NCBI GenBank assembly: GCA_938002605.1
Contig: CALLAF010000045.1
Location: 1 to 38,492 of the forward strand
Direction of reading: 5' to 3'
Length of the DNA stretch: 38,492 nt
Origin: an uncultured Paracoccaceae bacterium
Lineage (GTDB): Bacteria; Pseudomonadota; Alphaproteobacteria; Rhodobacterales; Rhodobacteraceae
The position numbers and the translations under genes were made by a program. Every line of letters begins with the position of its first letter. The stretch's first letter is position 1. Below the pieces are notes generated by a model. The model had not been told where the DNA came from, made no database searches, and worked only from the letters and a program-made list of their open reading frames with translations. Shown piece after piece: positions 9,463 to 38,492 of the stretch.

Positions 9463-10434
9463 ATGTTCAGTGCTGTCACGAAAAACCAATCGCCGCGCGC
9501 GCAACGCCCTGCGCCCCGCGCGCAAACCCACGCATTGGCACCTGCCGCCAATCAATCGCCACAGGTTCAGCGATTAGCGGCGTTGCAGACGATGGCCGAT
9601 GATCACGTCGCTCAGCGGGTAAAAACCGTGTCGCAAGATTATGATAACGTCAGCGGTTCACCCGTCGGCATGGCCATTCGGACGCATCTTGGTGGACCAC
9701 GCGAAACATGGACCGCAGACGCAATATTTGGCGCGACCCAGGCCTGCTATGTTGAAAACCTTGCGCGCGGTCAGGCGCTTATGGCCCAACTCCAGCAAAG
9801 CAAGGAAGATGAAACACCGGCGACAACAGGCGACGATAACGCCGCACTATTTGACGAAAGCTATACCACACGTGTCGTTCAGGACCGGCGCGGTGATCAT
9901 CGCTACAGTATCGGAACAAAGGGCGGCGACAGCCACGAGACCGCTTATCAAAATGGCTATGATGTCGCGAATGCCTCTATCGAAACGGCCACGAACTATG
10001 CCTCCCGCGACCCAAACCGCGCCGCCGAAGGCCCACACCTGAACAATTCTGAAATCTTTTGGAACCAATGGGGGGCTGCGATAGACGCTGATACACCCAA
10101 AAGTTTCTTTGAGCGCAAACGTATCCACCGCGCGCGCAAGGCCGCCAAAAAACGGGCATTGGGTAAGATCACACGTATGGCCGTATCGAACACAAGTACA
10201 ATTTTGACAGTGCAGCATATCCTGCCCGACAATGAGTCCTTCTCGCGCGAAAAAGCGGTATCCGAAATTTATGCGGCCGATACGGACGCCTTTGCCGCCC
10301 TTTTAGGGACCCCAAACGGACGGGCCGTTGGTTATTTGCTCAAAGACCATTATCATGAAATGGATTTGAAAAGTTTCGGTAACGTCGTGATTGATGGCGC
10401 AACGACCTCGCTTACCTTTAACTTTGCAGACTAA
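9463..10434 (+). CDS. hypothetical protein with an eCIS-cargo-like N-terminal motif
   Basis: A 323-residue protein of unknown function. The first 30 residues are Pro/Ala/Gln/Arg-rich and disordered-looking. Residues about 30-47 read NQSPQVQRLAALQTMADD, close to the NSPQVQQLxALQxMA motif seen at the N-termini of DUF4157-type and other proteins linked to extracellular contractile injection systems. The middle (about 145-200) is Asn/Tyr/His/Asp-rich (ETAYQNGYDVANAS), followed by a very basic helix (FFERKRIHRARKAAKKRAL, about 220-240) and a C-terminal region with many beta-like residues. No HExxH protease motif or signal peptide is seen. It ends convergently with coxM-like, overlapping by 4 bases. 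No injection-system structural genes are near. Confidence 0.7.
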   Translation: MFSAVTKNQSPRAQRPAPRAQTHALAPAANQSPQVQRLAALQTMADDHVAQRVKTVSQDYDNVSGSPVGMAIRTHLGGPRETWTADAIFGATQACYVENLARGQALMAQLQQSKEDETPATTGDDNAALFDESYTTRVVQDRRGDHRYSIGTKGGDSHETAYQNGYDVANASIETATNYASRDPNRAAEGPHLNNSEIFWNQWGAAIDADTPKSFFERKRIHRARKAAKKRALGKITRMAVSNTSTILTVQHILPDNESFSREKAVSEIYAADTDAFAALLGTPNGRAVGYLLKDHYHEMDLKSFGNVVIDGATTSLTFNFAD

Positions 10435-11216
10435 CCCGCCGCAATAACAGCGCGTTTCGTCAACACCGCGATAAGGTGCGCGCGGTAATCCGGGGTGCCG
10501 TGGATATCATCCATCATACCTTCTGTCGGGACCGTCAGCCCGTCCAACGCCTGCGCCGAAAACGCCTGTGAAAGCGCCGTTTCGGCATCAAGCCAACGAA
10601 ACACGCCTTCTTCTGACGCGCCGGTCACGGCGACCCGCACAGCATCTGCAAACCGCGCGACAAAGACGCCAACAAGCGCAAAACGAGATGCAGGCTGTGT
10701 GAATTTCGCATAATATGCGGCCTGTGGGATTGGAAAGCGGACTTCGGTGATAATTTCGCCTTCATCAAGCGCGGTTTCAAACATCCCAAGAAAATAATCA
10801 TCCGCCGCAATCGCGCGCGCGTTGGTCACGATGGTCGCCGCTGACGCAAGTGCGGCCGCTGGGTAGCAGGCTGCGGGGTCATTATTGGCAAGCGATCCAC
10901 CGATTGTACCGCGATTGCGCACCGCTGGATCGCCGATATCCACCGCGAGCGCGGCAAGCGCGGGGTATTGCGCAGTTTGTTTGGCAAGATTGGCATGGGT
11001 GACGCCTGCACCAACACAAAGCTGCCCATCGCGCTCCGCGATTGATTGTAGCTCTTTAATGCCTGTCAAGCTGACCAGCACTTCGGGCATGGCAAGCCGC
11101 GCCTTGAGCGTCGGAATCAATGTCTGCCCCCCAGCAAGCGGTTGCGCCTCTTCATTTTGAAGCGCTTGAACGGCCGCGTCGATCGTCAAAGGCGTTGTAA
11201 TTTCAAACGGATACAT
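10431..11216 (-). CDS. coxM: FAD-binding (medium) subunit of a CODH/xanthine dehydrogenase-type enzyme
   Basis: A 261-residue protein of the CoxM/XdhB-like FAD family. The two FAD pyrophosphate-binding stretches are visible: PLAGGQTLIPTL near residue 41 and TIGGSLANNDPAACYPAAAL near residue 104. The C-terminal CO_deh_flav_C domain follows. In molybdenum hydroxylases this subunit passes electrons from the [2Fe-2S] subunit to its acceptor. It starts 9 bp after the small-subunit gene with an AGGGG ribosome-binding site. The expected large molybdopterin subunit is absent from this cluster, so the substrate cannot be assigned; the symbol names the family, not proven CO oxidation. Confidence 0.88.
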   Translation of the reverse strand: MYPFEITTPLTIDAAVQALQNEEAQPLAGGQTLIPTLKARLAMPEVLVSLTGIKELQSIAERDGQLCVGAGVTHANLAKQTAQYPALAALAVDIGDPAVRNRGTIGGSLANNDPAACYPAAALASAATIVTNARAIAADDYFLGMFETALDEGEIITEVRFPIPQAAYYAKFTQPASRFALVGVFVARFADAVRVAVTGASEEGVFRWLDAETALSQAFSAQALDGLTVPTEGMMDDIHGTPDYRAHLIAVLTKRAVIAAG

Positions 11217-35024: not shown

Positions 35025-35079
35025 CACCCCGTTCGGCCAGACTGTGAGTCGTTAGTAACCTAGTATTTTGGCGTTCCGA

Positions 35080-36108
35080 ATGACTGCAAATGAACTCATA
35101 ATTCATATCGGGCATAGAAACACCGACTCTGAGGTGCTGCAAAATACGTTGACTGCCTCGCGCAAAACTCTTGATGAATACGGGGTCTACTTTCCCAAGT
35201 TTGCGACCGAAAACCACGAAAAATTTGTGCTTGGTTACGAAACACAGCTTGTCGATGAAGGCGCGCAAATAGACCCACAAAGCGTGCCACAGCGCGATCA
35301 TTGGGACCGCATCATGTCACGCAATAACCTTTTGCCGAGCACGACAACTATCGTCAGTAACCGTGCGTTTTTCAAACAGCTTACCGCGCAAAGTGCTGCT
35401 CACTTTGAAGCGGTGACAAACCATATCGCCCGCCGCAAAAAGATTGTCGCATATTTGCGACCACCTGACACATATTTCTTGCTGCTTTTGCAGCTGCGGC
35501 TTGCGCAAAACCGCGATATCGTCACCCCGTCACGCACTCGGATCAAAGAACGTATTGAACCCCTTGGCCAAGCTTGGAGCGGCGGTATTTCACTGACGCT
35601 ATTTTCTGCGAGCGTGCTGACCGACGGCAATATTGTCGACGATTTTTTTGCACATCACGTCCCAGACTTTGACAGGCAACTTTTGACCCGCCCGCTCCCA
35701 TCAAAGCCCCACCGGATCTCGGCCGAGGCGATTGCCTTGTTAATTGACCGCCAGCACGGGCGTCTTGATACGGACGTCGATTCCGCTGTGATGGTCGCAC
35801 AAATTGTCCGCGAAGACGCACGGCTGCCCGGCGCGACCCCAGCCCGACTTCGCGCCAATGCTGCACGCACAATTCGCAACTGGGCGGCGCCAGACCTTGC
35901 TTGGCTTCGACAGGAATATGGTATTAGGTTTCCTGAACAGGGCTATAAAGACGTCGACGGTGATGATGTGGATCTTAGCGTCATTCATTTTACGGATGGT
36001 GGGCAAATCTGTGCTTTTGATGCCGACCGCAAGGACGCCTTATATGAAAAAGCACTGGCGCGTGCGCGGATGCCGCGATTAGCGCGACAACTGCTAAGCC
36101 TTTGGTAA
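35080..36108 (+). CDS. sulfotransferase-fold protein (paralog 2) lacking PAPS motifs
   Basis: A 342-residue paralog of the gene at 33290. The ATG at 35080 aligns with the other paralog's start; a TTG 12 bases up is less likely. Shared blocks are HIG near residue 9, KKIVAYL near 120, NWAAPDLAWLRQEYGI near 265 and the ICAFDADRK end. The PAPS loop is HRNTDSEVLQ, without the Lys-Thr-Gly-Thr-Thr core, and the 3'-phosphate segment is YLRPPDTYFLLLLQLRL, without Ser. It is therefore probably not a PAPS-dependent enzyme; a partner or divergent role is inference. Its stop is 2 bases from the convergent tauE-like stop. Confidence 0.75.
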   Translation: MTANELIIHIGHRNTDSEVLQNTLTASRKTLDEYGVYFPKFATENHEKFVLGYETQLVDEGAQIDPQSVPQRDHWDRIMSRNNLLPSTTTIVSNRAFFKQLTAQSAAHFEAVTNHIARRKKIVAYLRPPDTYFLLLLQLRLAQNRDIVTPSRTRIKERIEPLGQAWSGGISLTLFSASVLTDGNIVDDFFAHHVPDFDRQLLTRPLPSKPHRISAEAIALLIDRQHGRLDTDVDSAVMVAQIVREDARLPGATPARLRANAARTIRNWAAPDLAWLRQEYGIRFPEQGYKDVDGDDVDLSVIHFTDGGQICAFDADRKDALYEKALARARMPRLARQLLSLW

Positions 36109-36931: not shown

Positions 36932-37951
36932 CTATGCCGCCTGCGATGTAACATGCGCAAGCGCGTCTAACACGACTTGTGGCCCTGCCCCGCTTTCATG
37001 CACGTTTTCAGAAAGATGCCGTCGCCAGCCACGCGCACCCGGGCGACCTTGAAACAGCCCTAGCATATGCCGGGTTACTTGTCCCAATCGTCCACCGGCC
37101 GTCAAATGCGTCTCAATGTAGGGCAGCATCAGATGTACGATCTCTGCTGCGGTGCGGGTCTCGCCCATGCCAAAAATGCGCTGATCTGCGGCAAGCAAAA
37201 TGTCACTTGGGGTATGGTAGGCCGCACGTCCGATCATCACACCGTCCAAGCCTTGATCAAGCAACACCTGTGCATCATCCAAACTGCCAATGCCGCCGTT
37301 GATCGACAGGTTTAACCCCGGAAACAACCCTTTCATCGCCAACACCAGATCATAGTCTAGCGGCGGCACGTCGCGGTTCTCTTTCGGGCTGAGCCCCTGT
37401 AGCCAAGCTTTACGGGCATGCACGATAAAATGATCCACGCCTGCCGCCGATACCCGCGCAAGGAAGTCCGGCAAAATTTCCGCAGGGTTCTGATCGTCGA
37501 GGCCAATCCGGCATTTGACGGTAACAGGCACATCAACCGCTTTGATCATTGCGGACACACATGCTGCCACAAGCGCCGGATCCTCCATCAAGATCGCGCC
37601 AAAGCGGCCAGATTGCACACGGTCTGACGGGCAGCCACAATTGAGGTTAATCTCGTTATAGCCGTAATCCGCGGCAATGCGCGCGGCCTCGGCCAGTTGC
37701 GCCGGGTCAGAGTCGCCCAATTGCACGGCTACCGGATGCTCTGATGTGTCAAAGCCCAGCAAACGATCACGATCCCCGTGGATCACAGCGGGCGCGGTCA
37801 CCATTTCTGTGTAAAGCAACGCATGCTGCGACATAAGACGGTGCAAATACCGACAATGGCGATCCGTCCAATCCATCATGGGCGCTACGGATAGGCGAGA
37901 ATTACTATAAACGCTTGTATGTATTGACTTACTTATCACTTTAACTCGCAC
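36932..37951 (-). CDS. dusA: tRNA-dihydrouridine synthase A with an altered N-terminus
   Basis: A 339-residue flavoenzyme that reduces uridine 20/20a in tRNA. The LSVAPMMDWTDRHCRY signature starts at residue 20, NLNCGCPSDRV gives catalytic Cys107, and the FMN phosphate site is in GGIGSL and MIGRAAY. The first 18 residues are Lys/Ser/Val-rich and AT-rich in DNA, unlike the rest. That is what is expected if a genomic island has integrated into the 5' end and supplies a new start (GTG at 37951). An integrase gene is divergent 100 bp away. Confidence 0.93.
   Translation of the reverse strand: MRVKVISKSIHTSVYSNSRLSVAPMMDWTDRHCRYLHRLMSQHALLYTEMVTAPAVIHGDRDRLLGFDTSEHPVAVQLGDSDPAQLAEAARIAADYGYNEINLNCGCPSDRVQSGRFGAILMEDPALVAACVSAMIKAVDVPVTVKCRIGLDDQNPAEILPDFLARVSAAGVDHFIVHARKAWLQGLSPKENRDVPPLDYDLVLAMKGLFPGLNLSINGGIGSLDDAQVLLDQGLDGVMIGRAAYHTPSDILLAADQRIFGMGETRTAAEIVHLMLPYIETHLTAGGRLGQVTRHMLGLFQGRPGARGWRRHLSENVHESGAGPQVVLDALAHVTSQAA
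37850..37897. other. predicted attachment-site region at the dusA 5' end
   Basis: The DNA for residues 19-34 of DusA (LSVAPMMDWTDRHCR) is the strongly conserved stretch in which known dusA-associated islands integrate. To its right the composition changes to AT-rich and the coding sequence diverges. The second att copy would be at the far end of the island, outside the window, so the core cannot be delimited. Confidence 0.5.
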
Positions 37952-38006
37952 TCTGCCTTGTCGTTTACTGCTCTTTTTTGCTTGTTTTTGCCCAATATTT
38001 CCTATC

Positions 38007-38048
38007 TGAACAATATATGTTGTTCAAATAGACCAAAAATGTTGTTCA
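38007..38048. promoter_or_regulatory. operator-like TTGTTCA array between dusA and the integrase gene
   Basis: Three identical 7-bp half-sites: TGAACAA at 38007-38013 and TTGTTCA at 38020-38026 form an inverted repeat with a 6-bp centre; a third, TTGTTCA at 38042-38048, lies 22 bp on (two helical turns) and ends 3 bp before the integrase ATG. ATG precedes TTGTTCA or GTTCA in both direct copies (ATGTTGTTCA twice). Likely bound by an element-coded repressor or excisionase, or by the integrase arm domain. Confidence 0.55.
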
Positions 38049-38051
38049 GGT

Positions 38052-38492
38052 ATGGCCCAGATAGTAGAACGAAAACGCAAGAACGGTTCAATCGCTTATG
38101 TCGCACAAATAAACATAAGGCAAAACGGAAAATGGGCACACCGAGAATCTCGCTCGTTTGACAGGCGCTCATCGGCAACTGCGTGGTTCAATAAGCGGAT
38201 GAAAGAAATCCGTGATGCAGGTGACGATCTGAGCGCACTTAAAAGCAAAGGCCGCACACTTGGCGCAACCATCGACATGTATATCACTGAAAGCATAAAG
38301 GAGGTTGGCCGCACGAAAGCGCAGGTGCTCCGGTCGATCAAGGAATACGACATCGCGGATATGCCGTGCAACGAGATCCAAAGCCACCACATAGTCGAGT
38401 TTGCAAAATCTCTTGGAGCAACACGGACCCCCGCAACGGTCGGGAATTACATTTCCCACCTTGGATCCGTGTTTGCATTGGCACGACCAGCT
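38052..38492 (+). CDS. int: tyrosine-type integrase of a dusA-associated island, N-terminal part
   Basis: An open frame of 147 codons runs from ATG at 38052 off the right edge. The N-terminus MAQIVERKRKNGSIAYVAQI and RESRSFDRRSSATAWFNKR is the form of an arm-binding domain in dusA-type integrases. Residues about 60-147 look like the helical core-binding (SAM-like) domain (TLGATIDMYI, TPATVGNYISHLGSVFALAR). The catalytic R-H-R-Y domain lies beyond the window. Divergent from dusA by 100 bp. The ribosome-binding site is poor (CAGG directly before the ATG), and the start overlaps the operator-like array, so expression may be tightly controlled. Confidence 0.85.
   Translation, partial: MAQIVERKRKNGSIAYVAQINIRQNGKWAHRESRSFDRRSSATAWFNKRMKEIRDAGDDLSALKSKGRTLGATIDMYITESIKEVGRTKAQVLRSIKEYDIADMPCNEIQSHHIVEFAKSLGATRTPATVGNYISHLGSVFALARPA

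Follow-up and report, generated by a model that had tools for sequence, protein, structure and literature searches.

Both ends of a probable dusA-associated integrase element on two contigs of a Paracoccaceae genome

An element with a dusA-associated integrase has very probably inserted into dusA in this genome, judging from the sequences at its two ends. The boundary is real: a second contig holds the opposite end of the element. One end lies on C45, which is the window (the whole stretch of DNA analysed: 38,492 bases, an entire contig), and the other on C55. Under the proposed mechanism, recombination took place between the attP of the element and the 5' start of dusA. The outcome can be read in the sequence: each end of the element lies against one of two copies of an 18-bp core, the former start of dusA is now the outer edge, on C55, and dusA has a new, AT-rich start from the element. 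That start is in frame, so the dusA reading frame stays open.

On the window side, the integrase gene and dusA are divergent with adjoining 5' ends, and the contig end cuts the integrase gene (Table 1). An earlier note on this DNA had described this arrangement, and its coordinates hold. It had also described an AT-rich dusA N-terminus of about 18 residues unlike the conserved body of the protein. Counted from the GTG start, 18 residues precede the conserved RLSVAPMMDWTD, and GC content is 34.6% at 37890-38051 versus 57.2% at 36932-37866. The dusA assignment is secure with NCBIfam NF008774 (490.6 bits; cut-off 269). Neither a tRNA nor an Rfam match was found within the window. A sigma-70 promoter scan of 37700-38200 was empty, so a new dusA promoter is without support. 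Further into the contig, a 346-aa ORF (35068-36108, +) has no Pfam family at E 0.001 and a sole match at E 0.3.

Table 1. Features at the two ends of the element and elsewhere in the genome. Positions are those of the window unless a contig is given.
Feature	Position	Strand	Remarks
dusA (tRNA dihydrouridine 20/20a synthase)	36932..37951	-	GTG start, element-supplied 5' end; PF01207 277.4 bits; NF008774
att core, window-side junction (attR)	37862..37879	-	18 bp, ATGATGGATTGGACGGAT; exact match to C55:24954-24971
Element-supplied dusA codons	37880..37951	-	24 residues, replacing 16 original residues MTAANLRRAGRLSVAP; old start kept on C55, G025 and G052
Putative arm-type site, inverted copy	38008..38015	-	TATTGTTC, 1 mismatch
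Putative arm-type site, direct copy 1	38018..38025	+	TGTTGTTC
Putative arm-type site, direct copy 2	38040..38047	+	TGTTGTTC, 22 bp from copy 1
dusA-associated integrase gene, 5' part	38052..38492	+	147 aa, 3'-open ORF, gene cut by contig end
Far-end open ORF	C55:25148-25297		50 aa
C2 head-gene cluster: capsid	C2:344-1579		PHROGs
C2 head-gene cluster: protease	C2:1584-2201		PHROGs
C2 head-gene cluster: portal	C2:2775-3833		sub-threshold
C2 head-gene cluster: endonuclease VII	C2:3670-4098		weak

The 147-aa integrase piece matches phrog_1 (integrase family; 4.8e-9) and phrog_22184 (unknown function; 2.1e-12), and nothing in Pfam at E 0.001. PF00589 matches the integrase of a relative, L115, with 55.1 bits; in the window gene this catalytic part, where the RHRH/Y residues of a tyrosine recombinase would be, lies beyond the contig end. 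Relatives of the piece occur in 41 of 394 genomes of the family at E 1e-10, its own genome included. The best reach 79% identity in viral contigs and 81% in named genomes, and the six best named genomes (76-81%) are labelled Rhodobacteraceae, Roseobacter, Pacificibacter and Sulfitobacter. In a tree of the N-terminal part, the window integrase groups with L115 and L071 (97/84).

The far end was found by comparing window positions 37600-38492 with the rest of the genome. There is one other match, G000:C55:24936-24971, which pairs 36 bp at 89% identity (E 8.3e-6) with window 37862-37897 and includes the exact 18-bp core. The order on C55 is the original dusA start, the core copy and then 327 bp of element. 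The reading frame there gives MTAANLRRAGRLSVAPMMDWTD at the second copy and then departs from dusA, and the start that it has, MTAANLRRAGRLSVAPMMDWTDRHCRY, is intact in the congeners G025 and G052. The 5' end of dusA is replaced by the element, then, with the old 5' end at the outer edge, and semiconserved direct repeats lie at both element ends in the dusA 5' region.

Both congeners have an empty dusA site. When the flanks are joined at the core (C55 as far as it, the window onwards from it), they align with the G025 site over 2493 bp at 89.65% identity with 0 gap openings; the alignment with G052 is looser (76.3%, 47 gap openings). On C55 the upstream gene (Exo_endo_phos by PF03372, 27.4 bits; cut-off 24.5) corresponds to the immediate upstream neighbour of dusA in G025 and G052. 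The att repeat, the replaced dusA 5' end and the empty sites bear out the integration boundary that the earlier note had proposed, and neither of the two outcomes that it had named as refuting (no repeated dusA segment, or an arrangement fixed in all relatives) came about. Its expectation of a repeated dusA 5' segment was right as to existence and wrong as to place: the second copy is not rightward on the same contig, because the window is a whole contig.

Within the genus, dusA is present in 55 of 56 genomes. We examined the best 30 of the 55 dusA loci, the window's own included, and 8 of these (again counting the window) have an integrase homologue in the upstream stretch fetched. Three of the integrase-bearing loci look broken or partial (L011, L018 and L020) and L016 runs off its contig; L031 has a decayed integrase-like start by eye, with no report from the homologue search. 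G016, from the same genus, shows this very layout on a single contig, with about 17 kb between the copies.

Both ends of the element carry copies of an 8-bp motif, TGTTGTTC, that we take for putative arm-type integrase sites. Besides the copies next to the integrase start, the C55 end has two more exact copies, 12 bp apart and about 50 bp inside, making four exact copies at set spacings across the two ends. A joint score over four sites is 32 out of 32; none of 200 shuffles of the far end and none of 15 far ends from other elements equals it. Allowing at most 1 mismatch, a scan of 277,362 bases of the genome gave the 12-bp-spaced pair a single time, at the C55 end; it was not found in the viral contigs. 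Lambda Int binds arm-type sites with its N-terminal domain and the core with the rest of the protein. Short sites repeated on both sides of the core and common within the element, a feature of lambda Int-like systems, are present here. By analogy, the N-terminal domain of the window integrase would bind the TGTTGTTC copies and the rest of the protein the core; the copies beside the integrase start may also control its gene.

Two other origins for the C55 copy were weighed. We consider it extremely improbable that it arose simply by duplication of part of dusA, with no connection to the integrase: the copies share only about 36 bp of dusA and the ends are on different contigs, which would suit a duplication, but the conserved upstream gene on C55 and the arms at both ends argue against it, and the gapless agreement of the joined flanks with the G025 site does so strongly. 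It is also very unlikely, though less so, that C55 and C45 hold the ends of two different elements stacked in one dusA. Sulfitobacter sp. M05 (G451; L196 at about 1000-1520) seems to be a case of such stacking, the far end there lying against pieces of another integrase gene of the dusA type. Against it here, the C55 far end has both the original dusA start and the arm motif of the window integrase, a combination that two elements with the same motif could also fit. We keep to a single element with its ends on two contigs.

dusA insertion of this kind is already known. The element fits every testable defining feature of the dusA-associated integrase (DAI) elements (Farrugia et al., 2015; PMC4482086), and we count it as one of them. 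The islands and prophages in the main text of that survey share with it an integrase gene divergent at the dusA 5' end, a new 5' end supplied by the element, an old 5' end at the outer edge and semiconserved direct repeats. According to the same text, DAI elements carry prophage or island cargo, and a prtN homologue occurs in 60 of 94 elements and so is not universal. The dusA-specific integrative elements of Vibrio (PMC8409611, main text) likewise target the 5' end of dusA with a tyrosine recombinase. There, Int and RdfN suffice to excise a mini-element, and the promoter and N-terminus are altered. The Vibrio elements are SGI1-like and mobilised by IncC plasmids; the body of the window element is missing.

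The paired arm motif is an addition of the present analysis relative to the main text of PMC4482086, supplements aside, since neither 'arm' nor 'inverted repeat' occurs there (0 occurrences each). The main text of PMC8409611 likewise has no word beginning with 'arm'. No paper in our search, which covered main texts outside subscription journals, has both 'dusA' and 'arm-type'; given that scope, we make no claim of priority.

In other dusA elements the layout is similar and the motif is another one: AGTCATAC in G016, TGTAGCAC in L131, CGTAGCAC/TGTAGCAC in AH2, TGTAGCAA in H66 and GGAGCACC in AS1. The best repeat spacing before the integrase gene (12-35 bp tried) is 19-22 bp at 47 of 56 integrase starts, the window included, a count that drops 8 loci with too little upstream DNA and retains near-identical loci. 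The phage sample comprised 16 of 80 matching records, with 34 Vibrio records left out. For the joint test we set aside L142 (a near copy of L139), L143 (an integrated form), L166 (little upstream DNA) and L168 (no core within 4 mismatches). In 12 of 16 elements, no more than 1 of 200 shuffles scored as well as the true far end (11 with 0, EKP1 with 1). The test failed in the remaining four: 4 shuffles for CSP3, 19 for DC1, 147 for C5a and 159 for SMHB1. Foreign far ends scoring as well as an element's own (of 15) numbered 1 each for G382, AH2 and YeP1, 4 for BcepIL02, 5 for CSP3, 10 for DC1, 14 for C5a and 15 for SMHB1. A first, blind script gave 0 of 300 shuffles as good in 10 of 16; in some of the other 6 the motif seemingly was mis-set.

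The motif rule can also be used to look for far ends. Applied to nine long elements from other lineages, it located two, G016 and G382, and gave no location in G325, G008, G333, G294, G400, G313 and G318 (15.8-80 kb fetched). The first scripts had located the G016 far end and missed that of G382, and they gave none for G037 and G147. In a forward test, the genomes of four relatives were scanned with TGTTGTTCNNNNTGTTGTTC at up to 2 mismatches, which yielded 8 to 10 places in each (4 to 7 with the reversed pattern); the core was looked for at six of the places with at most 1 mismatch. This located the far end in three of the four. The single best place is an exact match in G449 and G451 and has 1 mismatch in G450; each time a 14-bp dusA core (2, 2 and 1 mismatches, in the order G449, G451, G450) with an open dusA-start frame is some 55 bp away. 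Provided that C1 is the integrase-bearing contig, the distance to the integrase gene is about 38 kb in G449 and 37 kb in G451, on the side of the island. The G450 place is on a different contig, longer than the one with the integrase gene, so either that element would be split as in the window genome or the place belongs to another element. The fragmented MAG G448 has two 1-mismatch places, neither with a core. By eye, the DNA just inside the far-end arms of L194, L196 and L197 is unlike C55. In an IMG/VR contig, L131 at 9700-10440, the DNA after the core is not that of dusA and there are arm pairs to either side, an arrangement that looks like the excised attP form.

We lean towards the view that the short arm-site code differs between lineages of dusA elements while its layout is common to them. 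Before the integrase gene there would be a direct pair, in most cases spaced by 19-22 bp, together with an inverted copy, and inside the far end an inverted pair spaced by 11-12 bp. This code would change with the integrase and would therefore show which ends belong together. It would find far ends across contigs and could prevent cross-recombination between stacked elements.

The earlier note had pointed to the cargo as the most promising source of a new system. This is not supported: the body parts sought did not turn up in the assembly, and the nearest relatives whose flanks can be read have phage genes beside the integrase. A search of the assembly for the rest of the integrase with the 334-aa G008 integrase returned only C45 and one match at E 0.235, which leaves the cargo unreadable. 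By eye, none of six PF00589 places in the assembly is the missing half. The tape-measure protein of one relative has no match in the assembly, from which the element body itself is missing. PF11112 likewise found no prtN homologue in this assembly without the element body, and none of 14 control genomes exceeded the cut-off. The open ORF at the far end finds only itself among 394 family genomes and no relative in viral contigs, genome contigs, plasmids, Pfam or PHROGs, nor in a protein search covering candidates of about 28-88 aa. A weak PADLOC match of this ORF (PDC-S05, E 0.019) is a lead only.

Elsewhere in the genome, a cluster of head genes lies at a contig end (G000:C2:344-4098; L170), in the order capsid, protease, portal on the coding strand. 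By eye, arginase-like, ornithine-cyclodeaminase-like and gyrA-like genes follow it. The portal-like gene was rejected as part of the element body: it is at another site, and chromosomal genes follow up to the gyrA-like one (by eye). We read the cluster as part of something separate, be it a phage, a satellite or a gene-transfer agent.

The element is probably a prophage, to judge from its relatives. Flanks could be read in four of the six named genomes with integrases at least 76% identical (L171 and L173 have too little DNA after the integrase gene), and all four have phage tail or lysis genes beside it, which makes a prophage likelier than a new system. These are Roseobacter sp. HyVt-317 (L172), Pacificibacter marinus (L174), Sulfitobacter undariae (L175) and Sulfitobacter sp. 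M05 (L176), with integrases 76-79% identical over 147 aa, and they share the dusA site and TGTTGTTC-type arms before the integrase gene. L172 was read through the IMG/VR contig L115, whose ORFs match its own and which has endolysin, tail and tape-measure genes beside the integrase; the far end of L172 was not found. In the other three, tail-fibre, endolysin or tail-lysozyme genes lie less than 10 kb from the integrase gene. G382 (69%) is prophage-like by eye.

A non-phage genomic island with accessory or defence cargo is a weaker but plausible candidate, to be held tentatively. In the main text of the 2015 survey, 46 of 94 dusA-specific elements are islands or phage remnants and 48 are prophages (PMC4482086). 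By eye, the roughly 17 kb of G016 have MerR-, resolvase- and toxin-antitoxin-like ORFs, and four elements with integrases 63-73% identical look non-phage, with no obvious phage genes among the ORFs read: L178 (73%, integrase frame broken), L177 (69%), G325 (69%) and G091 (63%). The far-end ORF, with no homologue found and its one PADLOC match, also fits an island. Against this stand the closest integrases, those of the four phage-like genomes, and we keep prophage as the preferred reading.

These results demonstrate, across two contigs, a dusA-integrated element in a genome of the Alphaproteobacteria that is Rhodobacteraceae-like to judge from its relatives. They also yield a simple rule by which the far end of such elements can often be located from sequence, and which could help to bound prophages and islands in fragmented assemblies.
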